DNA of 64,000 bases from Desulfacinum sp. (GTDB lineage: Bacteria > Desulfobacterota > Syntrophobacteria > Syntrophobacterales > DSM-9756). This document shows positions 2,653 to 58,637 of the stretch, in pieces (positions within the stretch are counted from its first letter, which is position 1; every line of letters begins with the position of its first letter). The stretch lies in contig JACIYN010000018.1 of NCBI GenBank assembly GCA_014359885.1, forward strand, positions 1 through 64,000, in the 5' to 3' direction. The notes beneath the pieces are model-generated. The model was not told the origin of the DNA. It saw only the letters and a program-made list of their open reading frames with translations, and did not search any database. A program made the translations under genes and the position numbers.

Positions 2653-4479
2653 TTAGGCCAAGCCCAGGCGCTCCAGGAGCTTTGGGGTGGGGCGGCCGTT
2701 TTCGTCCCATTCCCTCAGCCGGTAGTAGATGGGGAGCATCTTGTCCAGTTCGCACACGTGGCCCTTGGCGGGCCCCGCGGGCATGGGTTCGCGGGTCATG
2801 CGCGGCGGCAGCGTGTCGTCCTTGGCGTCCAGGCCCGCCCTGTTGAGGAAGATCCTTTCCGCGTTGATGATCCGCTCGGCGGACGTCATGAGCGATTCCA
2901 TGGTGTAGCCGGCCCCGGTGGCGGTGTTGAGGAGCTCCAGGATGCGCACCGGCCGGATGTCCTTGGTCTTGGTCACCAGGTTGCGCACGGAAAAGAAGAC
3001 GCACAGGCCCGCCGAGTCGATGAGGGCGAACACGTCCTGCCAGTCCTTCACGATCTGGGGCTTGTCCTCCCAGGTCAGGGGATCCACCAGCAGGGGCACG
3101 CCGATGATTTCGATGTAGGCCGGATCTCCCCGCATGTGGCTGGCCCCGATGGGAGAGGTGGCATAGGCGAGCCCCATGCCCTTTTCCGCCCGGGGTTCGT
3201 AGCCGGCGAATTCCTGCCCCTTGGACACCATGGCCAGTTCCGGGCATCCATACTTGGCGGCGAGCCGCAGGCTGCCCAGGGCCAGGTCGTTTCCGAAGCC
3301 CTCGCGGGCGGCGGTCTTTCGGACCATGTCCACCATGGCTTCCGCATCGCCGAAGGGAAGCGGCCGCCCGACGGTCTTTTCGTCCAGGATGCCCTTTTCG
3401 AACATCTCCATGGCGCAGGCGATGGTGGCCCCCATGGTGATGGTGTCCATGCCCATCTCGTTGCAGATGTAGTTGGCCTTGATCACGGCGGCCAGGTCCC
3501 GCACGCCGCAGTTGCTCCCGAGGGCGTACACCGTTTCGTATTCGGGGCCTTCGCCTTCGCCCTGAAAGGGGCCTTCCGCCACACGGGTCACCCGCCCGCA
3601 GGCGATGGGACAGCTGAAGCAGGCCTTGGCCCGCACCAGGTACTTTTCCGTGAGCGCCTCGCCGCCGATGTCCTGCCAGTGTTCAAAGGTGCCCTGCTGA
3701 AAGTTCCGGGTGGGGTAAGCCCCCACGTTCTGGGTGCCCGTGGACGTGATGGGCGTTCCGTAGATCCGGAGGGGCGGCGGACCGTCCTTGGTCTGCTCCT
3801 TGAAGCCGGCCATGATCTCCTTGACCACCTTCTTGAACCCTTCCGGATCGTGGATGGGAACCTTTTGGGTTCCGAAGACGGCCACACCCTTGAGGTTCTT
3901 GGAGCCCATGACGGCTCCCACGCCCGAGCGGCCGGCGGCCCGGTCCTTGTCGTTCATGACCGAGGCGAAAAGGACGCCCCGTTCCCCGGCGGGGCCGATG
4001 ACCGCCGTGCGCGCGTCCTGTCGAGTTTCTTGGCGAAGCAGCCGGTCCGTCTCGTGGGTGTCCCGGCCCCACAGGTGTTGGGCGCTGCGCAGTTCGGCGC
4101 GGCCTTCTTCCACCCAGAGATAGACCGGTTTTTCAGCGCGCCCCTCGAAGATGATGCCGTCCAAGCCGGCCCTTTTGAGCATGGCGGGGAATTGGCCGCC
4201 CGCGTTGGAGCAGGTGAGGGCGCCGGTGAGCGGCGACTTGGTCACCACCATGTACCGGGCGCCGGTGGGGGTTCCCGTTCCGGTCAGGGGAGCGGTGAGG
4301 AAGATGAGCTTGTTTTCCGGAGAAAGGGGATCGCAGGCGGGGTCCACCTCATCCAACAGGAACCGGGTGCCCAGGCCCCGGCCTCCCACGTAGTCCATGG
4401 CCTTCTGCCGGTCCAATTCCTCCACCGCCGTGGTGCCTTCGCTCAGGTTGACCCGAAGGATCTTTCCCATCCATCCCAT
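2653..4479 (-). CDS. Aldehyde:ferredoxin oxidoreductase (tungsten/molybdopterin AOR family)
   Basis: Starts MGWMGKILRVNLSEG; GGRGLGTRFLLDEV, GTGTPTGARYMVVTKSPLTGALTCSNAGG, CFSCPIACGRV are AOR hallmarks. Upstream in-frame extension lies in repeat DNA and was trimmed. Confidence 0.93.
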   Translation of the reverse strand: MGWMGKILRVNLSEGTTAVEELDRQKAMDYVGGRGLGTRFLLDEVDPACDPLSPENKLIFLTAPLTGTGTPTGARYMVVTKSPLTGALTCSNAGGQFPAMLKRAGLDGIIFEGRAEKPVYLWVEEGRAELRSAQHLWGRDTHETDRLLRQETRQDARTAVIGPAGERGVLFASVMNDKDRAAGRSGVGAVMGSKNLKGVAVFGTQKVPIHDPEGFKKVVKEIMAGFKEQTKDGPPPLRIYGTPITSTGTQNVGAYPTRNFQQGTFEHWQDIGGEALTEKYLVRAKACFSCPIACGRVTRVAEGPFQGEGEGPEYETVYALGSNCGVRDLAAVIKANYICNEMGMDTITMGATIACAMEMFEKGILDEKTVGRPLPFGDAEAMVDMVRKTAAREGFGNDLALGSLRLAAKYGCPELAMVSKGQEFAGYEPRAEKGMGLAYATSPIGASHMRGDPAYIEIIGVPLLVDPLTWEDKPQIVKDWQDVFALIDSAGLCVFFSVRNLVTKTKDIRPVRILELLNTATGAGYTMESLMTSAERIINAERIFLNRAGLDAKDDTLPPRMTREPMPAGPAKGHVCELDKMLPIYYRLREWDENGRPTPKLLERLGLA

Positions 4480-4494
4480 GAGCGTCCTCCTTGT

Positions 4495-4557
4495 CCGTTG
4501 TCCGTGATCCGTGATCCGTGGTCCGTGAGCCGTGATCCGTGGTCCGTTAGCCGTTAG
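4495..4557. repeat. Heptanucleotide tandem array (CCGTGAT/CCGTGGT/CCGTGAG/CCGTTAG)
   Basis: About 9 consecutive 7-nt units read directly upstream of the AOR gene. Confidence 0.85.
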
Positions 4558-4756
4558 CCGGGGCCCGCAGACTGCAAGGCGTTGCCCGTGAATGGGGGCT
4601 CGCCGGGAGCGTGTCCGAAAACGCCGGCCATGACCGCTTTTCTCCCCTTTTTCAAAGGGGGCCGGGGGAATGGCCCGTGATCCGCTGTCCGTGCTCCAAG
4701 GATCCAGGGGCCCGTGCCTCTTCACCCGTCCCTTTCCCCGAAGGGCGACGCACAGA

Positions 4757-4818
4757 CGACGGTTCACGGATTACGGCCTGCGGATTACGGATCACGGATC
4801 ACGGTTTCCGGTTCCCGG
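4757..4818. repeat. Heptanucleotide tandem array, opposite orientation (ATTACGG/ATCACGG/TTTCCGG)
   Basis: Reverse complement of the 4495-4557 units. Confidence 0.8.
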
Positions 4819-4900
4819 CCCCGGGGGTCTCCGGCTATAAAGAACTCCGAAGAGGGGATCGCCTCCCAACAAATGAATCCATCACCCGGAAGGTGTCCAC

Positions 4901-5134
4901 ATGAAGATCCGCGTGGAAAGCTTCGCCACCTATCGAACCTACACGGAACACCTGCCCCCGGACAAGCGGCTGGATGTTCCCGAAGGCGCCGTCATCCGGG
5001 ACGTGCTGGACACCCTGGGCGTTCCCATGGACAAACCCATCATCCTCATCGTGAACGGCCGGGCCCGCCCCGCCCACACGCCCCTCAAGGAAGGCGACCA
5101 CCTGGTCTTTTTTCCTCCCCTGGAAGGGGGCTAA
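4901..5134 (+). CDS. MoaD/ThiS-family ubiquitin-like sulfur carrier
   Basis: 77 aa; beta-grasp pattern and C-terminal FFPPLEGG di-glycine. Confidence 0.88.
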   Translation: MKIRVESFATYRTYTEHLPPDKRLDVPEGAVIRDVLDTLGVPMDKPIILIVNGRARPAHTPLKEGDHLVFFPPLEGG

Positions 5135-5227
5135 AAGGATAGGGACCAAAATCCACGCGAACGCTTTCACCCATTTGGCGGCCACTTGTTTTGTCCAACA
5201 GGACCTTGTGCCTTTCATACAGGCGGG

Positions 5228-5259
5228 CTGTAGGGGCGAATCATCATTCGCCCCTACAG
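5228..5259. repeat. REP-like palindrome family R1
   Basis: ctgtaggggcgaatcatcattcgcccctacag; near-perfect inverted repeat repeated through the window. Confidence 0.9.
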
Positions 5260-5384
5260 CTCCCTGGGTCCTAAAGGCGCGTTTCACCCTTCCGTGTCGC
5301 GGATTCCCGTGATGGGGGTTTGCGCGAAAAAGAACCGCAAACGAGACGCCCTCAGGTTCGAGCAGGCGCTGCGGGAGCGCCTCT

Positions 5385-5603
5385 GGGAGGCTGTTCGAGA
5401 ACGCCGCGAGTGAGCGCCCTTTTCGTAGCGCAGCCCTTTAGGGCTGCGGAAAGACCCCCGAACGTCGGGTAGGCCATCGCATATTTCCTGTCACTTCATG
5501 AAGTTGCGATGGCCCTTTCCGCGGGGCTGAAGCCCCGCGGCTACGAAAGGAGGGGCCATAACCCGGGCTCTTAACTCGGACAGCCATTGTCGGACAGGCT
5601 CCC
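5385..5603 (+). repeat. TIR-flanked composite element, core A (three inverted repeats)
   Basis: Left end gggaggctgttcgagaacgcc, right end gccattgtcggacaggctccc (inverted); core cgcagccctttagggctgcg, ggccatcgca...tgcgatggcc, cgcggggctgaagccccgcg. Confidence 0.75.
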
Positions 5604-5770
5604 AGGAGCTTGTCCGACAACGGAAGATTTATGCCGTTCAACGTCCATCCGTCATCCCCGCGAAGCTTGTCCCCGGCTTGAACGGGGAGCGGGGATCCAG
5701 GATTTCCGGCAGCTTATGGACTCCCGCTTACGCGGGAGTGACGGTTTGTAGCGTTCTCGGACAGGCTCCC
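5604..5770 (+). repeat. TIR-flanked composite element, core B (gtcatccccgcg...gcgggagtgacgg)
   Basis: Same TIR (aggagcttgtccgacaa / gcgttctcggacaggctccc) around an unrelated palindromic core. Confidence 0.75.
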
Positions 5771-5795
5771 AGGCGCGATCCGAGCCGAGGTCCTG

Positions 5796-6489
5796 TCACA
5801 GCCCCAGGTAGGCCTCCCGGATCTTGGGATCCCCCAGAAGCTCCGCCGAAGCGCCCTGGCGCACCAGCCGCCCGGTTTCCATCACGTAGGCGCGGTCGCT
5901 GTTTTTCAAGGTCATCTCCACGTTTTGTTCCACCAACAGCACGGTCATCTCCTTTCGGATCCGCCGGAGCTGCTCGAAGATTTCCTTCACGATCAAAGGC
6001 GCCAGGCCCAGGGACAACTCGTCGATGAGAAGCACCACGGGCCGCGCCATGAGCGCCCGGCCGATGGCCAGCATCTGCTGTTCGCCGCCGGAAAGGGTTC
6101 CCGCCCGCTGGTTCCAACGCTCCCGCAGGATGGGAAACATCTCGGTCACCCACTCGAAGGATTGGGAAAGGCGGTTGCGTGCTTCCTTGCGAAAGGCGCC
6201 CATTTCCAGGTTTTCCCTGACGGTGAGGTCCTTGAAGACCCGGCGGCCTTCGGGAACGCAGGCCATGCCCCGATGGGCGATTTCGTGCGGGGCCAGGGCC
6301 CCGATGTCGGTTCCGTCCAGGAGCACCCTTCCCTGGGCGGGCTTGAGAAGCCCCATCAGGGTGCGGATGAGGGTGGTCTTGCCGGCGCCGTTGGCGCCCA
6401 CCACGGCCACGGTTTCCCTGGGGCGCACATCCAGCGAGATGCCGTGCAGAACCTTGTTTTCCCCGATAAAGACGTGCAGATCTTGAACT

Positions 6490-6497
<8 letters not shown>
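5796..6497 (-). CDS. livF: Branched-chain amino acid ABC transporter ATP-binding protein LivF
   Basis: Walker A GANGAGKTTLIRTL, LSGGEQQMLAIGRALM, LLIDELSLGLAP; Liv operon context. Confidence 0.93.
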
Positions 6498-7221
<724 letters not shown>

Positions 7222-7231
7222 GGCGTTTCCT

Positions 7232-8188
7232 CTAGGGTTGAGCGTCCAGGGTGCGAAAGCGCTTCCGCCACAGGCCCACGAGGCCTTCCGGGGCGAACCG
7301 GCTGATGAAAAGGGCCACCAGCCCGAAGATGAGCACGTGGAATTCCCCGTAAATCCGGATGTATTCCGAAAGCACCTCCAGGAAGACGGCTCCCACGATG
7401 GGCCCCGCCAAGGTGCCCAGCCCTCCGATGATGGTCATGGCCAGCACCAGGAACATGAGGTTGAGCGAAAGGATTTCCGGGGTGATCAGCTGGTGGTAGT
7501 GGCCGTAGAGGGCCCCCGCCAGGCCCGCCATGGTGCTGGAAAGGACAAAGGCCGCCACGCGGATCTTCACCACGTGGATTCCCAAGGACGCGGCGGCCGT
7601 CTCGTCGTTTTGCACCGCCCGGAAGGCGGTCCCCAGATCGGATCGGATGATCCGGTGGATCACGTAGAGCAGACCCAGGGCCACCGCGGCCATGAGATAG
7701 AAGGCCCACGCCTTGGAATAGAAGGGCAGGACGAAGGGGACGGACAGGCCCATGGTCCCCCGGGTGATCTCGTATTCGTTGTCGATCACGATCCGGAGCA
7801 TCTCGGAAAAGGCCAGGGTGGTGAGCGACAGGTAGATGCCGCCCATGCGGATGCAGAGCACTCCCAGCAGCAGGCCCAGAACCGCCGCCACGGCCATGCC
7901 CACCAAGGCCCCCAGAAGGGGCGGGAGCTGGAAATAGATGGCGCACATGCCGGACACGTAGGCTCCGATGCCGGCAAAGGCCGCGTGGGCAAAGGACACC
8001 TGGCCGGTATAGCCCGCCAGGAGATTCCAACTGGCGGCCATCATCACGTAGAAAAGGCAAAGAATGGCCGTGTGGAGCCAGTAGTCTCCGGCCACCAGAG
8101 GGAGCACCGCCAGCACGCCGAAAAGACCCATGGACAGCAGCCAGACAACAGAACGGGGCACGGACAACTCCTTCGCTGCAAAAGGCAA
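7232..8188 (-). CDS. livM: Branched-chain amino acid ABC transporter permease LivM
   Basis: 318 aa polytopic; SWNLLAGYTGQVSFAHAAFAGIGAY. Confidence 0.92.
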   Translation of the reverse strand: MPFAAKELSVPRSVVWLLSMGLFGVLAVLPLVAGDYWLHTAILCLFYVMMAASWNLLAGYTGQVSFAHAAFAGIGAYVSGMCAIYFQLPPLLGALVGMAVAAVLGLLLGVLCIRMGGIYLSLTTLAFSEMLRIVIDNEYEITRGTMGLSVPFVLPFYSKAWAFYLMAAVALGLLYVIHRIIRSDLGTAFRAVQNDETAAASLGIHVVKIRVAAFVLSSTMAGLAGALYGHYHQLITPEILSLNLMFLVLAMTIIGGLGTLAGPIVGAVFLEVLSEYIRIYGEFHVLIFGLVALFISRFAPEGLVGLWRKRFRTLDAQP

Positions 8189-8251
8189 CAGAACGCCAAC
8201 TTTCCTTCGCGCATTGCGGGTCGCCGGGGCGACCGACTTTCCCTTGCGCGA

Positions 8252-9115
8252 TCAGGTCTCCTTTCGGCCGAAAAGGCCGGCCGGCCGGATGGTGAGCACC
8301 AGCACCAGGATGAGAAACCCGAAAAAGTGCTTGTAGCCGGACGAAATGTAGGCGGATCCCAGGTTCTGGACCACGCCGAGAAGGATGCCGCCCACCACGC
8401 AGCCTTCCAGGCTGCCCATGCCGCCCAGGACCACCACCACGAAGGCGGTGAGGCTGATCCCCACGCTCACCGTGGGGTTCACCGGAAAGATGGGCGCCAG
8501 GATGACGCCGGCCGCCGCCGCCAGAGCGCATCCCAGGGCAAAGGAGAGCATGTTCACCCGCGCGGCGTTCACCCCCACCATGGACGCCATCTCCCGATCC
8601 TGGGCCACGGCGCGCACCATCTTGCCGAACCAGGTCTTCTTGATGAGAAGAAAGAGAAGGGCGATCACGGCGGCTCCGGCCAGAAAGGAAGCCAGCCGCT
8701 GGTTGCCGTAATAAAAGAGGCCGAAAAGGTGCGTGGACCCGCTCACCCAGTTGGGGGGCTTCTGGGGATAAGGCCCGAAGATGAAGAGATAGGCGTTTTG
8801 CAAAACGATGGACAGAATGAAGGTGATGATGAGCGAATACATGTCGTTGCCGTAGGTGGGCTGGATGAGGGTCCTTTCGATGAGAAGGCCGAAGACGAAG
8901 ACCAGACCCACCGCCAGGGCCATGGCCAGGGGGATGGGAAGGCCCAGGGCATGGGCGAAGAGGGCGCTGAAGTAGCCCGCCAGCACGTAGAGTTCCCCGT
9001 GGGCGAAGTTGATGACGTTCATGATGCCCACGATGAGCGAGACGCCCAGAGCCGACAGGGCGTAGATGACGCCCAGCAGCAATCCGTTGGTGAGGTAGAG
9101 CAGAAAGTCGTCCAT
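8252..9115 (-). CDS. livH: Branched-chain amino acid ABC transporter permease LivH
   Basis: Starts MDDFLLYLTNGLLLGVIYALSALGVSLIVGIMNVINFAHGELY. Confidence 0.92.
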   Translation of the reverse strand: MDDFLLYLTNGLLLGVIYALSALGVSLIVGIMNVINFAHGELYVLAGYFSALFAHALGLPIPLAMALAVGLVFVFGLLIERTLIQPTYGNDMYSLIITFILSIVLQNAYLFIFGPYPQKPPNWVSGSTHLFGLFYYGNQRLASFLAGAAVIALLFLLIKKTWFGKMVRAVAQDREMASMVGVNAARVNMLSFALGCALAAAAGVILAPIFPVNPTVSVGISLTAFVVVVLGGMGSLEGCVVGGILLGVVQNLGSAYISSGYKHFFGFLILVLVLTIRPAGLFGRKET

Positions 9116-9280
9116 GGGAGGTGGTTCCTTTGCCTTGCGATCGCGGGCGATCCTTCCGTCTGGGATAGGGGGCGAAAGGCCGCCGGATGACGGTTCACGG
9201 TTCACCAGACTTTTTAACGGTCGTGGCTCTCGCTGTGTCACCCTGCATGGATGGAAGACTGAGCTAGGTAAGAGCCTTTT

Positions 9281-9372
9281 GTGGGAGCGCCGCAAGGCGC
9301 GATTTTCTTTACGTGACCGCACGCTTGTTGGATCACCGGCCACACTCATCGCGGCTTTCGCCGCTCCCACAC
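9281..9372 (+). repeat. Paired-stem repeat family R2
   Basis: gtgggagcgccgcaaggcgcga...cgcggctttcgccgctcccacac; same pattern at 9533, 11531(-), 32468, 37303, 62345(-). Confidence 0.8.
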
Positions 9373-9532
9373 ACCGGTCATTTCCATCTTGCGTTCATAT
9401 GGGTTCATTGCCGGTTTTCTTTCACATTAGCGATCATGGTGTGGTACGCCACCCCGCACGGATGAAAGAACCGGCAGCGGGGCGCTCTCCGCCCTGTGAG
9501 CGCTTTCCGCCCTGTGGGAGCTTTCTCGTCTC

Positions 9533-9622
9533 TGTGGGAGCGCCGCAAGGCGCGATGAGGTGGTGGCCGCACCGCCACGGAACGGCCGGCCATCCCCTTC
9601 GCGGCTTTCGCCGCTCCCACAG
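9533..9622 (+). repeat. Paired-stem repeat family R2
   Basis: tgtgggagcgccgcaaggcgcgatgagg...ttcgcggctttcgccgctcccacag. Confidence 0.85.
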
Positions 9623-9798
9623 ATGATGGTGCTCCCCCAGGGGATGGTGTTCCCACAGGGGATGCCGCACCTGTTGGGTGTTGATTGGAGCCCCCGATGC
9701 TCCTGCAACATACCGAAAGTACGGTTCTTTCACATTAACCCCCCATCACGGACGGCCCGTGACAACGAAGGATGAAAAGCCCCTTTGGCAAGCAGACC

Positions 9799-47220: not shown

Positions 47221-48168
47221 ATGAAAAAAAAATCGCCCGATGCAGGAGGAAAATGCGTGAGGTTTCGAACCGTCCTTTTCATCGCCTGCCCCCTCGTGGT
47301 GGTGGCGGCGCTCTTTTCCATCTCCCTGGGAGGATCCGCCGGCCAGCGCATGGGCGTGGTGGTGAGCATCCTCCCCCAGAAATACTTCGTCCAGCGCATC
47401 GCCTCCGACCGCGTGCAGGTTTCCGTGTTGGTTCCGCCGGGGGCCAACCCGGCCGTCTACGAACCCACCCCGGCCCAGATGAAGGCCCTGTCCCAGGCCG
47501 CGGTCTACTTCACCGTGGGGGTTCCCTTCGAGAGGGCCTGGCTGCCTCGGATTCGCTCCGCCTTCCCCGAGCTCCGCATCGTGGCGACCGACCGTGAGAT
47601 CCACAAGAGAAGCCTGCCACGCCACGTGCACGAAGAGGAAGGACAGACGGTCCACTCCCATCCCGAGGACCACGGCGGCTTTCCGGACCCGCACGTGTGG
47701 CTGGCGCCCCATCTGGTGGGGGTACAGGCACGCGCCGTCTTCAAGTCCCTGGCGGACCTGGATCCGGAGCATGCGGGCTTTTATGAAGCCAACTACAAGC
47801 GGTTCGCCCTGGATCTGGTGGATCTGGACCTGGAACTCCAGCGTCGGTTCCGGGACGTGGGGCAGGCCAACCGCTTTGTGGTGTTTCATCCGTCCTGGGG
47901 CTACTTTGCCGACGCCTACGGCCTGAAGCAGTTGGCCATCGAACTGGAAGGCAAGGAAGCCCGGGCTCCGGAGTTGAAGAAGCTCATGGACGAGGCGCGT
48001 TCCCTGGGCGTGAAGGCGCTTTTCGTGCAACCCCAGTTTTCGAAGCGCTCGGCCGGCGTGGTGGCCCAGGCCGTGGGCGCCGAGCTCGTAACCTTGGATC
48101 CTTTGGCCGAAGACTGGGCCGAAAACCTGCGTGCCGCAAGCCGCCGTATCCGGGAGGCCCTTCGATGA
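47221..48168 (+). CDS. znuA: Zinc/metal ABC transporter substrate-binding protein (ZnuA-like)
   Basis: VVVSILPQKYFVQRIASDRVQVSVLVPPGANPAVYEPTPAQMKAL; His-rich RHVHEEEGQTVHSHPEDH; DPHVWLAP. Confidence 0.92.
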   Translation: MKKKSPDAGGKCVRFRTVLFIACPLVVVAALFSISLGGSAGQRMGVVVSILPQKYFVQRIASDRVQVSVLVPPGANPAVYEPTPAQMKALSQAAVYFTVGVPFERAWLPRIRSAFPELRIVATDREIHKRSLPRHVHEEEGQTVHSHPEDHGGFPDPHVWLAPHLVGVQARAVFKSLADLDPEHAGFYEANYKRFALDLVDLDLELQRRFRDVGQANRFVVFHPSWGYFADAYGLKQLAIELEGKEARAPELKKLMDEARSLGVKALFVQPQFSKRSAGVVAQAVGAELVTLDPLAEDWAENLRAASRRIREALR

Positions 48169-48950
48169 ACTCCCAACCGACAAAGGAAGCGGCCAGCCTC
48201 CGCGGGGTCTCTTTTTCCTACAACGGCCACCAGGTCCTGGAAGGTGTGGACCTGCGGTTGGAGGAGCGGGATTTTGCGGCCGTCATCGGCCCCAACGGGG
48301 GCGGCAAGACGACCCTTTTGAAAATCCTCCTGGGGCTGTTGCGGCCCCGGAGCGGGCAGGTGCTCCTGTTCGGAGAGTCGCCGGAGCGCACCGCGCACCT
48401 GGTGGGTTACGTGCCTCAGGATATCCATGCCAACAAGCACTTCCCCATCTCGGCCCTGGACGTGGTCCTCATGGGCCGCCTTCGTCCCGGGCGACTTTTC
48501 CACCGCTACTCCCGGGAGGACCATCGAGCCGCGGAAGAAGCCCTGGACAAGATGGAGATGTGGCCGGAGCGCCACAAGAGAATGGAGGAGCTGTCCGGCG
48601 GGCAGCGACAGCGGGTCTTTATCGCCCGGGCCCTGGCTTCCAACCCCCGGGCCCTCTTTCTGGACGAACCCACGGCCAGCGTGGACGCCATGGGCCAGAC
48701 GGACCTCTACAGCCACCTGAAGGACCTGAACGAGCGGATCACCATCCTGGTGGTCACCCATGACCTCATGGTGCTTTCCAGCTACGTGAAATCGGTGATC
48801 TGCGTCAATCGCTCCCTCATCCACCACCACGCCCCGGAAGTCACCCCGGACATGCTCCGGCTGGGCTACCGCTGCCCCGTGGAATTGCTGGGTCACGGAC
48901 ACCTGCCCCACCGCGTGCTGCCCTGCCACGGAGGGCCCTGCTGTGAGTGA
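48165..48950 (+). CDS. znuC: Zinc/metal ABC transporter ATP-binding protein (ZnuC-like)
   Basis: [50 protein letters not shown]. Confidence 0.93.
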   Translation: MNSQPTKEAASLRGVSFSYNGHQVLEGVDLRLEERDFAAVIGPNGGGKTTLLKILLGLLRPRSGQVLLFGESPERTAHLVGYVPQDIHANKHFPISALDVVLMGRLRPGRLFHRYSREDHRAAEEALDKMEMWPERHKRMEELSGGQRQRVFIARALASNPRALFLDEPTASVDAMGQTDLYSHLKDLNERITILVVTHDLMVLSSYVKSVICVNRSLIHHHAPEVTPDMLRLGYRCPVELLGHGHLPHRVLPCHGGPCCE

Positions 48951-49752
48951 ATGGCTCCAGCTTCCCTTTGTTCAGAACGCCCTGGCGGGCGGGATTTTGG
49001 CCGGCATCCTGTGCGGAGTCATGGGCACCTACGTGGTGGCCAACCGGATCGCCTATCTGGCGGGCGGCATCGCCCATGCGGCCTACGGAGGCGTGGGGCT
49101 CGCCCTTTTCCTGGGCTTTTCGCCTCTTTGGGGCGTGTTGGGCTTTACCCTCACCGGCGCGCTCATCATGGGATGGATCTATCTGAAGGAACGCCACCGC
49201 GCGGACACGGCCATCGGAGTCCTCTGGGCCTTCGGCATGGCCGTGGGGGTTCTGCTGACCGACCTGACGCCGGGCTACAACGTGGACCTCATGAGCTATC
49301 TTTTCGGCAGCATCCTCACCATTTCCCGACAATCCCTGGCGGCCATGGCCGCCCTCATCACCGCCGTCCTCCTCTTTGTGACCCTCTTTTACCGGGACCT
49401 GGCGGCGGTTTCCTACGACGACGAATTCGCGCGGGTGCGAGGCATTCCGGTAACCGCCCTCCAGCTTCTGCTCATCGGAGCCGTGGCGCTTTCCGTGGTG
49501 GCGCTCATCCGGGTGGTGGGGCTCATCCTGGTCATCGCCCTGCTCACCATCGCCCCTTACATGGCCGAGAAACGCTGCCGGTCCCTGGCATCCATGATGG
49601 TGACGGCCGGGCTTCTCAATTGCGTCTTCGCCCTGGCGGGCCTGTGGATTTCCGTCCGTTTCAACGTGACTTCCGGCGCCGCCATCATCTGCGTGGCCTC
49701 CCTGGCCTATTTCGCCTTCGTGGGATGGTCGTCCCTGAGGCCCCGGGCCTGA
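48943..49752 (+). CDS. znuB: Zinc/metal ABC transporter permease (ZnuB-like)
   Basis: FVQNALAGGILAGILCGVMGTYVVANRIAYLAGGIAHAAYGGVGLALF. Confidence 0.93.
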   Translation: MSEWLQLPFVQNALAGGILAGILCGVMGTYVVANRIAYLAGGIAHAAYGGVGLALFLGFSPLWGVLGFTLTGALIMGWIYLKERHRADTAIGVLWAFGMAVGVLLTDLTPGYNVDLMSYLFGSILTISRQSLAAMAALITAVLLFVTLFYRDLAAVSYDDEFARVRGIPVTALQLLLIGAVALSVVALIRVVGLILVIALLTIAPYMAEKRCRSLASMMVTAGLLNCVFALAGLWISVRFNVTSGAAIICVASLAYFAFVGWSSLRPRA

Positions 49753-49844
49753 AGCCCCGAGATGTTGGCGTGCGTCGGATCCAGGGGCGGCCCCGATGGG
49801 GCCCATGGGCCGGGAGACAAGAAAGCGGAAAAAAGGGAAGGATC

Positions 49845-50276
49845 ATGTGTGAGCGCTGCGACTATTCGGGGCTTCTTCGTGCGGTAGGGCTTCGACCGAC
49901 CCTGCACCGTTTGGCGGTGCTTCGGGTGGTGGGGGCCGCTCCGGCGCCCATGACCGCCCAGGACGTGTATGAGGCCGTCCAGACGGACCGGCCCATCAAC
50001 CGCGTGACCGTCTACAGGGTCCTGGATTCCCTGGTGGAAAGCGGGCTGGTGGAAAAGATAAGCGCAGGGGATCGAAGTTTTCGTTACGGCTTGGCCCCCA
50101 ACGAACACCACCCGCGGCATGCGCACTTTTTCTGCCGCCAATGCGGCCTCATGGCCTGTCTTCCCCCGGAAAGCCTTCCCGTCCCATGGCAGGACGCCTC
50201 CGGCGCGCTCCCCGGCGTCGCCGAAAAGGTGGAAATCCGGGTGGACGGCATCTGCGAGCAGTGCCTGGGAACCTAA
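49845..50276 (+). CDS. Fur family transcriptional regulator (Zur candidate)
   Basis: GLRPTLHRLAVLRVVGAAPAPMTAQDVYEAV; RVTVYRVLDSLVESGLVEKI; HHPRHAHFFCRQCG; CEQC. Confidence 0.9.
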   Translation: MCERCDYSGLLRAVGLRPTLHRLAVLRVVGAAPAPMTAQDVYEAVQTDRPINRVTVYRVLDSLVESGLVEKISAGDRSFRYGLAPNEHHPRHAHFFCRQCGLMACLPPESLPVPWQDASGALPGVAEKVEIRVDGICEQCLGT

Positions 50277-50355: not shown

Positions 50356-50527
50356 GCGGTCAGTCTTCCGAGCATTTTCAACAACGTGAAGGTGCGGCCG
50401 AAAGTTATAGGCCGGCCCGATTCTTGAGCCCCCCTTTCATCGAAACTTCCTATTTGTTTGTGCGCCCTCGGATTCCTATCTTGCCGAGTGATTCAATCCT
50501 TTGCTCAGACCGAGGAGGCGTTCGACC

Positions 50528-51133
50528 ATGGCGCACAAGCACATCGACTGTCGAGGGCTGGCCTGCCCGGCACCTGTGTTGAAAACCAAGGAAGCGGTGG
50601 ACCAGGGGGACGCGGATCCCATTACGGTTCTGGTGGACAACGAGGCGGCCAAGGAAAACGTGCGCCGGTTTCTTTCCAGAAGCGGCTACCGGGTGGAGGT
50701 CCGAACGGAGGGCGAAACCATCCTGGTGGAAGGCACCCGGGACGGCGCCCAGGCCTGTGAGGTCTTCGTTCCCGAACCGGACGACGCCGAAAACGCCCGG
50801 ATCCTGGTGCTGGTGGGAACCCGGCGGATGGGAACCGGGGACGACATGCTGGGCGAGAAGCTGATGGAAAACTTCCTGGGGACCCTCAAGGAGATGGGCC
50901 CCGCCCTGTGGCGTCTGGTCTTTCTCAACGCCGGCGTGACGCTCACCGTGGACGATTCCCCGGTGCTGGGGGTGCTCCAGGACCTGGAAAAGTCCGGTGT
51001 CCATATCCTGGTTTGCGGTACCTGCCTTTCCCACTTCGGCCTGCTGGAAAGAAAGAAGGTGGGGGAGACCACCAACATGCTGGATATCGTCACCTCCATG
51101 CAACTGGCCCACCGGGTGATCAGCCTCGTCTAA
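50528..51133 (+). CDS. yedF: Sulfurtransferase-like selenium metabolism protein YedF
   Basis: TusA-type DCRGLACPAPVLKTKEAV plus DsrE-like ILVLVGTRRMGTGDDMLGEKLMENFLGTLKEM...VCGTCLSHFGL. Confidence 0.92.
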   Translation: MAHKHIDCRGLACPAPVLKTKEAVDQGDADPITVLVDNEAAKENVRRFLSRSGYRVEVRTEGETILVEGTRDGAQACEVFVPEPDDAENARILVLVGTRRMGTGDDMLGEKLMENFLGTLKEMGPALWRLVFLNAGVTLTVDDSPVLGVLQDLEKSGVHILVCGTCLSHFGLLERKKVGETTNMLDIVTSMQLAHRVISLV

Positions 51134-51388: not shown

Positions 51389-52825
51389 ATGCCCACCACA
51401 TCCGCCAAGAACCTCTTCATCTTCAACGTCCTGGACGGCTTGCGGGAAGGCCTTTCGCAGTTCTCGGGCCCCAGCCGCGCCGCTCTGCTCTATGCCGAAT
51501 CCCCCGGGGATCCCATGAGGATCTGCGACCCGGAGAACCTGCTCCGGGGCCATGAGCCCATGCTCAAGGCGCTTTATCTGGATTCCGACGAGTGGCGCTC
51601 CAATGCTCCGGACACCCACGGCATGAAGCGCTTCGGCCAGATTTACCCGGAAAAGAACCTGGAAATGGCGGGGCTCATCTCCTACGGCGGCCGATCCCGA
51701 TCCATCTTCTACCAGATGTGGTTTACGGAACACCACCCGGACATGTGTTCCGTGGCCCCCACGGAAAGGTGGCTGGAACACGCCGTGTGGCTGCTCAGCC
51801 ACGATTTTGCCACCTCCAGTGCGTTCTACACCGGCTCATCCCGGTACGTGCTCCGCGAATACGCCACCCACGCCGTGCGGGACGCCGTCATGGACGGCCT
51901 CAACATGATGATCGGCTGGGACAACCGGCTCCAGGTCTATCCCATCCTGGATGCCGTCCTGGAGATATCCAAGACGCCGGAAGAAGGGGCCTGGCCGCGG
52001 GGGGAATTGGTCTTCGTGGAAGAGCGGTTCCTGGAAGAGATTCCCTTCATGGCGCGATTCCCCAGGCTGGAACAGCCGGACATCAAGAACACCAAACATA
52101 TTCGAAAACTTCTCCAGGCCGTGGAATATTCCGATCGCCAGCTGGTTTCGGACGGCCGCTCCCTGGTGGGCATCGCCCGCGGCGCCCTGCCGGACTGCCG
52201 GGTCACGGCTGATTTCCGCGGAAGCTACGGTTTCCTGCATCTGAACGGGAGTCCTGTCTGCAGCTTTTCCGACGGCCGCTTCCATTCCACCAACCGCCGG
52301 GCCAAACTGGTTCAGCTGGAAGAGGCCCTGCTCAGCTCCTCGGTGGATTCGTCGGTGGCGCACACCCTGTTCCGGATCACCGCCGCCATCGTGCACGGGG
52401 CCGAGGAAAAAAAACACGGCTGTACGCTGGTTCTGGACCTGAACGAAACCCCCATCGCCATTTCCGGCCAGGAACTGGACCGTCCCTTGGATCTACAGGA
52501 CCCGGCCTACCTGGACCTGGCCAAATCCCTGGCCAAGGTGGACGGGGCCCTCCACATCGGCCGCGACGGCCGCCTACATCGCTTCGCCTGCCTTCTGGAC
52601 GGCCGGGCGGTTCCCGGAGAGGACCGGGCCCGGGGCGCCCGCTTCAACTCCGCCCTGCGTTTTACGGCGGAACACGATCAGCTATTGGTGGTGGTCGTTT
52701 CGTCCGACCGGCCGGTTTCGGTCATCCAGGGCGGCGTGGAACTCACCGCCGTCTGCCGCTGGAAGCCCAGCTTCAGCTTCACCACGCCCCCGCCCACCCT
52801 GAGCGATTGGATTTCCTGGGGATGA
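51389..52825 (+). CDS. DAC/DisA_N-like nucleotide-binding protein with N-terminal putative sensor domain
   Basis: C-terminal AKVDGALHIGRDGRLHRFACLLDGRAV...RARGARFNSALRFTAEHDQLLVVVVSSDRPVSVIQGG matches the DGA...RHR layout, with RFN in place of RHR. Confidence 0.72.
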   Translation: MPTTSAKNLFIFNVLDGLREGLSQFSGPSRAALLYAESPGDPMRICDPENLLRGHEPMLKALYLDSDEWRSNAPDTHGMKRFGQIYPEKNLEMAGLISYGGRSRSIFYQMWFTEHHPDMCSVAPTERWLEHAVWLLSHDFATSSAFYTGSSRYVLREYATHAVRDAVMDGLNMMIGWDNRLQVYPILDAVLEISKTPEEGAWPRGELVFVEERFLEEIPFMARFPRLEQPDIKNTKHIRKLLQAVEYSDRQLVSDGRSLVGIARGALPDCRVTADFRGSYGFLHLNGSPVCSFSDGRFHSTNRRAKLVQLEEALLSSSVDSSVAHTLFRITAAIVHGAEEKKHGCTLVLDLNETPIAISGQELDRPLDLQDPAYLDLAKSLAKVDGALHIGRDGRLHRFACLLDGRAVPGEDRARGARFNSALRFTAEHDQLLVVVVSSDRPVSVIQGGVELTAVCRWKPSFSFTTPPPTLSDWISWG

Positions 52826-56158: not shown

Positions 56159-56710
56159 ATGGCGACCCTGGTGATCGGAGCGGTTCTTGTCTTGGTGCTT
56201 CTGTTTTCCGTGGTCTTGTACAACCGGCTGGTGCGCGCCCGGAACCTGGTGGAGGAGGCCTGGAGCGGCATCGATGTGCAGCTCAAGCGGCGCACGGACC
56301 TCATCCCCAACCTGGTGGAGACGGTCCGCGGCTACGTGCAGCACGAGCGCGGCGTGCTGGAAGAAGTGACGGCGCAACGGACCCGGACCCTGCAGGCATC
56401 TTCCGTGGAAGAGCGCGAGCAGGCGGAGCGCGGCCTGGGTCGCGCCCTGGGGGCCCTTTTCGCGGTGGCGGAAAACTACCCGGATCTCAAGGCGAACCAG
56501 AATTTTCTGGAGCTTCAGCAGGCTTTGGCCGACATAGAAAACGAGATCCAGCTGGCGCGACGCTACTACAACGGCACGGTCCGGGACCTGAACATCCTGG
56601 TGGAATCCTTCCCCAGCAATCTCTTCGCTTCCCTTTTCGGATTCCGGAAGGCCCGGTTCCTGGAAATCGAGGAAGGGGAACGGGCGGTCCCCAAGGTGAG
56701 CTTTTCCTGA
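56159..56710 (+). CDS. lemA: LemA family protein
   Basis: YNRLVRARNLVEEAWSGIDVQLKRRTDLIPNLVETVRGYVQHERGVLEEVTAQR. Confidence 0.95.
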   Translation: MATLVIGAVLVLVLLFSVVLYNRLVRARNLVEEAWSGIDVQLKRRTDLIPNLVETVRGYVQHERGVLEEVTAQRTRTLQASSVEEREQAERGLGRALGALFAVAENYPDLKANQNFLELQQALADIENEIQLARRYYNGTVRDLNILVESFPSNLFASLFGFRKARFLEIEEGERAVPKVSFS

Positions 56711-56723
56711 CGAGGTGAGCCCC

Positions 56724-58637
56724 ATGATCCGAAGGCTTCTTCAAACAGCTTGGGCGCTCCTGGTGCCGGCCCTTCTTTGGGTCGCCCCCGCCCCGGCATC
56801 CGCCGCTGAAACGGAAAAGATCCTCCATTTCCACAGCACCATCCTCATCGAGGCCGATTCGAGCCTGACGGTGACCGAATCCATCACGGTGCAAGCCTTG
56901 GGCAGGACCATCAAGCGCGGCATCGTGAGGGATTTTCCCACGACGTACAAGGACCGCTACGGCAACACCGTGCGGGTGGGCTTCGAGGTGGTGGAGGTCC
57001 GGCGGGACGGGAGGCCCGAACCCTACCACATGCGGCCTGCCTCCAACGGGGTTCGGATCTACATCGGGCGCAAGGACGTTTTCCTGAAACCGGGGGTCTA
57101 TCGCTACGAGATCACGTACCGCACCACCCGGCAGCTGGGGTTTTTCCCGGAATACGACGAACTTTACTGGAACGTGACCGGAACCGACTGGACCTTTCCC
57201 ATGGAGCGGGTGACGGCCCGGATCCGCCTGCCCGAAGGCGCGTCCCTCGTGCAATATGCGGCCTATACGGGTCCTGCGGGAGCCAGGGGGAAGGATTTTC
57301 GCTTTTCATCCGAAGGTGGCGGCTGGGTGACCTTCGAAACCACCCGTCCGCTGAAGCCCCGCGAAGGGCTGACCGTGGCGGTGGCCTGGCCCAAGGGGTT
57401 TGTCGCGGAACCCGGCGCACTGGATCGAGCGGGCTACCTGTTGGAAGACAACCCGGGACTGGGCGCCGGACTCCTGGGGCTGCTCTGCATTGTGGCTTAT
57501 TGCCTGGTCGTCTGGGCCCGCGTCGGAAGGGATCCCAAACCGGGAACCATCATTCCGCTCTTCCATCCTCCCCAGGATCTTTCCCCCGCGGCCGTGCGCT
57601 ATGTGCGGCGCATGGGATTCGATCAAAAAGCCCTGGCCGCAACGCTTGTGAACATGGCCGTGAAGGGATATCTGACCATCGAGGAGGAGGACAAGGGCTA
57701 CACGCTCCGGCGCACGAACCAGGGGGAAGAGGGGCTGTCGCCGGAGGAAAGGCCGGTGGCGGAGGAGCTTTTCACCCGCAGCAAGGCCGCCTCTGTTCAC
57801 TTGGGCAAGCGTTACACGCCGAGGCTTCGCCAGGCCATGGACGCGCTCCACAAGGAGCTTTCCCAGAGGTACCGAAAGGTCGCCTTCTTCACCAATTCCA
57901 AGTATATGGCCCCTGCGCTGTTGATGACCCTGGCCACCCTGGCGGCCATGGTCCTGGGCTCCCGGGACCGTTCCTCGGCCGCGTTCATGACCCTGTGGCT
58001 TTCCATCTGGACCGTCGCCTGTCTCCTCTTGGTCCATCGAGCCCTCGCTGCCTGGAAATCGGCCCCATCCAAGGCGGCCGCGCTGACTCCCACCTTCATG
58101 GCGGCGGCCTTCTGCGGCTTCGAAATAATGGGTTTGACCCTGTTCGCCGGCGCCGTGTCGTGGGGAGGCGCTCTGCTTCTGGTGTGCCTCGCGATCACGC
58201 ACCCGGTTTTCTATTTTCTTTTGAAGGCTCCCACCTCGTTCGGCCGGAAGCTCCTGGATCAAATCGAAGGATTCCGCCGGTATCTCTCCGTAGCGGAAGA
58301 AGACCGCCTCAACATCCTCCATCCCCCCGACCGGACCCCGGAGCATTTCGAAAGGAACCTCCCCTACGCCATGGCCCTGGACGTGGAGCAGGAATGGTGC
58401 GAGCGATTCGCCGGGATCCTGGAGGCGGACGGCGCACCGGACCGCCGCTACCGCCCCGCGTGGTATCGGGGCACGCACTGGTCCTCCCTCGGCACGCGGT
58501 CTTTCGCCGAAAGCTTGGGAAGCTCCTTTGCGGGAGCCGTGGCCTCCGCGTCTTCGCCTCCCGGCTCTTCGTCGGGATCGGGAGGTGGCGGCTCCTCGGG
58601 CGGCGGGGGAGGCGGCGGAGGCGGCAGCGGCTGGTAA
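56724..58637 (+). CDS. DUF2207 domain membrane protein with Gly/Ser-rich C-terminus
   Basis: Signal peptide, RGIVRDFPTTYKDRYGNTVRVGFEV, TM segments, C-terminal GGGGSSGGGGGGGGGSGW; follows lemA. Confidence 0.9.
   Translation: MIRRLLQTAWALLVPALLWVAPAPASAAETEKILHFHSTILIEADSSLTVTESITVQALGRTIKRGIVRDFPTTYKDRYGNTVRVGFEVVEVRRDGRPEPYHMRPASNGVRIYIGRKDVFLKPGVYRYEITYRTTRQLGFFPEYDELYWNVTGTDWTFPMERVTARIRLPEGASLVQYAAYTGPAGARGKDFRFSSEGGGWVTFETTRPLKPREGLTVAVAWPKGFVAEPGALDRAGYLLEDNPGLGAGLLGLLCIVAYCLVVWARVGRDPKPGTIIPLFHPPQDLSPAAVRYVRRMGFDQKALAATLVNMAVKGYLTIEEEDKGYTLRRTNQGEEGLSPEERPVAEELFTRSKAASVHLGKRYTPRLRQAMDALHKELSQRYRKVAFFTNSKYMAPALLMTLATLAAMVLGSRDRSSAAFMTLWLSIWTVACLLLVHRALAAWKSAPSKAAALTPTFMAAAFCGFEIMGLTLFAGAVSWGGALLLVCLAITHPVFYFLLKAPTSFGRKLLDQIEGFRRYLSVAEEDRLNILHPPDRTPEHFERNLPYAMALDVEQEWCERFAGILEADGAPDRRYRPAWYRGTHWSSLGTRSFAESLGSSFAGAVASASSPPGSSSGSGGGGSSGGGGGGGGGSGW

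Follow-up and report, generated by a model that had tools for sequence, protein, structure and literature searches.

A Desulfacinum DACND-DACNH-DAC protein with an R[FY]N/LDG active site, a predicted sensor-regulated cyclic-dinucleotide synthase

In the 64,000-nucleotide stretch of Desulfacinum sp. DNA analysed here (hereafter the window), the gene at positions 51389-52825 of the forward strand encodes a 478-aa protein, probably a soluble enzyme of the diadenylate cyclase (DAC) superfamily that synthesises a cyclic dinucleotide under the control of sensor domains. Judging from its sequence, it belongs to a distinct active-site class, denoted R[FY]N/LDG here, with c-di-AMP as the most likely product. 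The RHR triplet, treated as a catalytic hallmark of diadenylate cyclases, is replaced in this conserved class, which includes a DAC required for phage defence.

Domain architecture and fold

The open reading frame is real, starts with ATG and encodes three domains that all exceed the Pfam cut-offs in the order DACND (PF21749, E 3.5e-85; aa 6-177, 51404..51919, + strand), DACNH (PF21750, E 1.7e-32; aa 184-288, 51938..52252, +) and the predicted catalytic DAC domain (PF02457; aa 335-449, 52391..52735, +), the last of which scores 54.8 bits (cut-off 27; E 9e-15), far above chance. Pfam catalogues DACND and DACNH as 'probable sensor' domains of diadenylate cyclases, with no ligand attached, so that the N-terminal ~300 aa, initially described as uncharacterised, in fact comprise two catalogued domains. 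A literature search on DACND, DACNH, DACNV and DACNG yielded nothing relevant; the DACN* names reportedly go back to 'All DACs in a row' by Galperin in the J Bacteriol of 2023.

An AlphaFold2 model of the protein, built from 55 window and relative sequences, reached a mean pLDDT of 87 and a pTM of 0.81, and its best 50 PDB matches in a Foldseek search were all DAC enzymes, with a probability of 1.00. These included B. cereus 2fb5, a CdaS homologue (PMC8573169), CdaA/DacA of Listeria, B. subtilis and S. aureus, CdaM/DacM of Mycoplasma, mycobacterial DisA and the DisA structure 3c1y. The DAC fold, on the presence of which the first-pass annotation had made its assignment depend, is thus found in the protein. 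DACND was modelled confidently; for the N-terminal domains, no significant or assignable PDB fold match was detected, the best being to GAF (E 0.043), with longin-like proteins next. The loop that carries LDG through RFN has low confidence in the model (pLDDT about 60), and we therefore make no structural claim on side-chain contacts.

Active-site motifs and their conservation

Examination of the DAC domain bore out the earlier observation of a DAC-like region with the DGA motif kept and RFN in place of RHR: VDGA is found at aa 384-387 (DGA at aa 385-387, 52541..52549, +), with D385 and G386 invariant across all classes, and GARFNSA at aa 416-422 (nt 52634-52654; RFN itself at nt 52640-52648). 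In the alignment, LLDG (aa 402-405, 52592..52603, +) replaces the LPL adenine-site stretch of CdaA, the block RGARFNSALR (aa 415-424, 52631..52660, +) brings two new arginines, R415 and R424, along with RFN, and VSSD (aa 437-440, 52697..52708, +), with S438 and D440 invariant, is the counterpart of VSEE. The CdaA reference residues D171, Y187, L188, R203-H204-R205 and S222 (PMC8573169, PMC10167629, PMC12974146) correspond in the motif alignment to D385, L402, L403, R418-F419-N420 and S438, the last equivalence being set by eye, with the automatic alignment off by one there. The diadenylate cyclase spacing claimed at first pass is likewise present, with 15 residues from L403 to R418 as from L188 to R203 in CdaA; relative to CdaA, there is one additional residue in the DGA-to-leucine hairpin and one in the loop before VxS. 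Of the RHR by which the DAC superfamily is recognised, the protein retains the first Arg alone, and the first glutamate of VSEE is replaced in the R[FY]N class by S, A, V, C or M.

Across the sequences compared, RFN is a family property. R[FY]N, in the form RGAR[FY]NSA, is present in 18/18 DACND homologues with an intact DAC region, all retrieved by a DACND profile search blind to the DAC motif (a 19th match is cut by a contig end); a wider set of 80 loci is consistent with this, although it was partly found by motif pattern and hence is not independent. We define the R[FY]N/LDG class by LDG, RG[AS]R[FYL]N[SA], an Arg 6 residues past the first motif Arg, and VSxD, and the 478-aa protein displays each of these features. 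In a class alignment of 32 R[FY]N rows with 26 CdaA-like and 11 DacZ-like rows, D404 and G405 are found in 32/32 R[FY]N rows, compared with P followed by L, M, V or I in 26/26 CdaA-like rows (among 79 relatives, D404 is replaced by H, A, Q or E in 4). All 32 rows also share N420, D440, R415, where CdaA and DacZ types carry a hydrophobic residue, and R424, where other DACs have G, A or S, and every row of all classes retains D385 and R418. The His of RHR is invariant in 37 canonical rows and the second Arg varies, so that loss of the His is the true peculiarity of the class. Basic residues in the motif block average 3.0 in the R[FY]N class versus 1.8 in CdaA types, and R415 and R424 might compensate for what was lost from RHR. 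In those members of the class that were checked, a DACNH domain precedes the R[FY]N/LDG DAC domain.

After removal of the motif columns, a tree of the short DAC domains places R[FY]N and DACNV proteins apart from the CdaA and DacZ types (98/93); the same analysis neither demonstrates nor rules out one common R[FY]N clade (p-AU 0.47). The DACNV-type proteins of the phylum carry GSRHRSA or GTKHNSA, and one of them has a degraded-looking DAC-like region with GTTHGGSRKETA.

Purifying selection

The protein of D. infernum is 100% identical to the 478-aa protein, and the two genes differ by 30 synonymous and 0 amino-acid codon changes; six neighbouring genes, pooled, show 103 synonymous and 53 amino-acid differences (Fisher p 2.8e-5 versus the gene). 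The DACND-DACNH-DAC gene is under purifying selection. The aligned motifs indicate that RFN is not decay but a substitution that arrives as a package. A functionless DAC, for which the non-canonical RHR would speak, is extremely improbable, and a pseudogene or degenerate effector is ruled out by the invariant alternative motif with its coupled changes, the wide presence across the order and the 0 versus 30 substitutions. Of the three proposals made at first pass, altered specificity, nucleotide sensor or degenerate effector, the last is thereby dropped; the first two, between which sequence does not decide, are weighed below.

Relationship to the DS-2 anti-phage system

The sole significant NCBIfam match of the protein is a partial one to DS2_3_antiphage (NF053872; 69.7 bits versus a cut-off of 630). 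DS2_3, a DACNG-DACNH-DAC protein, is encoded by the third gene of DS-2, and according to the DefensePredictor paper each of two predicted catalytic-residue mutations in the DS-2 DAC eliminated defence (PMC13092281). In E. coli strain 361, where DS-2 is annotated as anti-phage phospholipase, nucleotidyltransferase and protein, DS2_3 (819 bits) has the motif IILDGEATDECTPSRGSRYNSGVRY and is collinear with the 478-aa protein over DACNH and DAC (24% identity, E 2e-9, aa 186-446). Genes for a patatin phospholipase, a CD-NTase and a DAC are also found together on Citrobacter plasmid NZ_CP029730.1 and Gluconobacter plasmid NZ_CP014690.1, with DACs of the DACNG-DACNH type that score above the DS2_3 cut-off (804 and 712 bits, respectively) and carry the motifs SRGSRYNSGVRY and SRGARYNSAVRY. 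When altered versions of the window fragment were compared with the DS2_3 model, RYN scored 50.8, RFN 49.5 and RHR 41.6 bits, and LLDG scored 49.5 versus 36.8 bits for LLPL, preferences that the motifs of the actual DS2_3 proteins bear out.

These similarities raise the question of whether the 478-aa protein could itself act against phages, as an orphan related to the accessory cyclase of the DS-2 CBASS. Its closest experimentally tested relative is anti-phage, and other R[FY]N DACs reside on plasmids and phage-derived contigs, with GARFNSA or similar motifs on plasmids of Priestia, Dyadobacter and Phycisphaera (RLN) and in three IMG/VR contigs. Nevertheless, we consider this quite improbable: the N-terminal domain is DACND rather than DACNG, the neighbours are housekeeping-like, the gene is stable in the order, a PADLOC match is absent, and the genome gave no SMODS CD-NTase match with a model that scores a real DS-2 CD-NTase only weakly (28.9 bits). 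Its fold, DGA motif and motif spacing place the protein in the DAC superfamily, although it lacks RHR. With a score far below the DS2_3 cut-off and no adjoining phospholipase or CD-NTase, it is best classed as a DAC with a variant active site, within the DACND-DACNH-DAC architecture, rather than as a DS2_3 protein.

Several observations concern the DS-2-like loci themselves. The DS-2 system of the E. coli strain 361 chromosome (2999-9676) adjoins a second CBASS that consists of a cGAMP-activated phospholipase and DncV. Priestia megaterium pFDU301D (2929-5918) carries the gene of an R[FY]N-class DAC next to, and divergent from, that of a strong SMODS CD-NTase (138.6 bits); this locus, which has no obvious phospholipase, may be a Firmicutes counterpart of DS-2. 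The three IMG/VR contigs with R[FY]N-class DACs are classified as viral, and these are probably prophage-borne defence genes; two of the proteins align with the greater part of the DS2_3 model, at 578 and 297 bits (below the cut-off of 630), and one, of 865 aa, has a long C-terminal extension. Pfam DAC (PF02457) gives no match on the DS2_3-type proteins of the Citrobacter and Phycisphaera plasmids despite a plain DAC domain after DACNG and DACNH, and profile-based DAC counts thus miss part of the R[FY]N class.

Genomic context and distribution

Directly upstream of the gene lies yedF (50501..51133, +; TIGR03527, 218 bits), as noted at first pass, preceded by a znuABC-type metal transporter; a TIM-barrel protein, a DUF4442 protein and a metallo-beta-lactamase-fold protein are encoded downstream. 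Synteny with yedF is retained in Desulfacinum and Desulfosoma only, and the largest recurring neighbour family is present at 20/76 loci, at varying distances and in either orientation, which rules out a conserved operon partner. A defence-island location was likewise rejected given the character of the neighbours and the PADLOC result. Elsewhere in the window, the ZnuA/ABC/ABC-3 metal-uptake genes are followed by what looks by eye like a Fur-family repressor, in the frame ending at 50276 (47221-50276), and a LemA gene is followed by one for a DUF2207 membrane protein whose C-terminal tail is rich in Gly and Ser (56159-58637).

DACND is present in 28/39 genomes of the order and in 19/297 sampled genomes of the phylum. 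The same genome also encodes a CdaA-like cyclase with an intact GTRHRAA (TIGR00159, 169.5 bits, just below the cut-off of 188.8), a DacZ-like cyclase with RHM, a 7TMR-HDED (PgpH-type) protein and several TrkA_C (RCK_C) domains; a search of the genome for c-di-AMP riboswitches found none. Given the two cyclases and the PgpH-like protein, a c-di-AMP network probably exists without the 478-aa protein.

Proposed mechanism and alternative readings

From these features, we infer the following scheme, which covers catalysis and its product, the parts played by individual residues, the control of dimerisation and the signal. DACND and DACNH would bind a ligand or partner and thereby control the head-to-head pairing of two DAC domains, each of which would bind one NTP through backbone contacts of L403. 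A metal would be held by D385 and D440, and the phosphates by R418, S438 and R415 and/or R424, in place of the His and Arg lost from RHR. The two NTPs would thereby be linked to form a cyclic dinucleotide, of which c-di-AMP is the likeliest. An active enzyme is favoured because the same motif occurs in DS2_3, for whose anti-phage activity the predicted catalytic residues are required (PMC13092281); the missing His and second Arg, the loss of the first VSEE glutamate and the presence of two other DACs in the genome argue against an active synthase. The literature searched contained no biochemical assay of any R[FY]N DAC. The likelihoods that we attach to the alternatives overlap with that of the synthase wherever the readings are not mutually exclusive.

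The main rival is a nucleotide receptor, in which the DAC domain would not catalyse but would bind a nucleotide (ATP, c-di-AMP or a different cyclic dinucleotide) and signal its state to DACND/DACNH or to a partner. The altered phosphate ligands of RHR, the missing VSEE glutamate and a c-di-AMP network already run by the other two DACs and the PgpH-like protein are in line with such a role. However, the catalytic Asp, D385, whose loss marks pseudo-cyclases, and the first Arg are invariant, and the domain order, sensor followed by a terminal DAC, fits an output enzyme. The dependence of DS2_3, with the same motif, on predicted catalytic residues also points away from a receptor, although loss of binding could look alike (PMC13092281). 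All considered, a receptor appears unlikely.

Distinctly unlikely, in our view, is a cyclase with an altered product, that is, one whose substrates are GTP, pyrimidine NTPs or NTP mixtures, or whose product is linear or larger, with base or phosphate recognition re-tuned by the LDG/RFN/RR package. The changes do cluster, with D404 next to the leucine that reads adenine and others in the phosphate site, and the DS-2 DAC works beside a CD-NTase that would otherwise duplicate the cyclic-nucleotide output (PMC13092281). However, the adenine-reading leucine, which acts through its backbone (PMC10167629), is kept as L403, and DacZ-like DACs commonly have D, N or S directly after it; altered specificity therefore gains little from LDG, and LDG as proof of guanine specificity is ruled out.

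The existence of a conserved class without RHR means that motif-based annotation may wrongly call R[FY]N DACs inactive, or miss them, and the question arises of what the second cyclase of DS-2 produces. More speculatively, the R[FY]N/LDG DACs could form a catalytically distinct cyclase class, spread over at least five phyla and serving both chromosomal signalling (DACND) and CBASS-linked defence (DACNG), with a product other than c-di-AMP or a different phosphate-binding chemistry. Desulfacinum is a heat-loving genus, and its protein may serve as a convenient stable model.

Comparison with known diadenylate cyclases

The 478-aa protein shares with CdaA, DisA, CdaS and CdaM the fold, the DGA motif, the first Arg of RHR and the motif spacing, but differs from them in having RFN instead of RHR, LDG instead of LPL and VSSD instead of VSEE, in the new R415 and R424, and in its N-terminal domains. 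Mutants of canonical enzymes show that the residues retained in the 478-aa protein are the most important ones: in Leptospira CdaA, D172A and R203A abolish activity and S222A reduces it (PMC12974146), and the Asp and first Arg concerned are both kept. In mycobacterial DisA, the change of RHR to AAA abolishes ATP binding (PMC3328451), but this mutant also removes the Arg that is kept in RFN. The DacZ-like DACs resemble the protein in that their third RHR position also varies (RHM in the copy of the same genome) and in that D, N or S often follows the adenine-site leucine; in contrast, DacZ-like DACs keep the His (11/11) and lack R415, R424 and N420.

Compared with other Pfam proteins combining DACND, DACNH and DAC, the protein has all three domains in order with no difference found, and is a typical member of the Desulfobacterota group of such proteins. 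With DS2_3, it shares the LDG, RG[AS]R[FY]NS, additional Arg and VSxD motifs; the differences are DACNG in DS2_3 versus DACND here, and phospholipase and CD-NTase neighbours there versus an orphan, chromosomal gene in the window.
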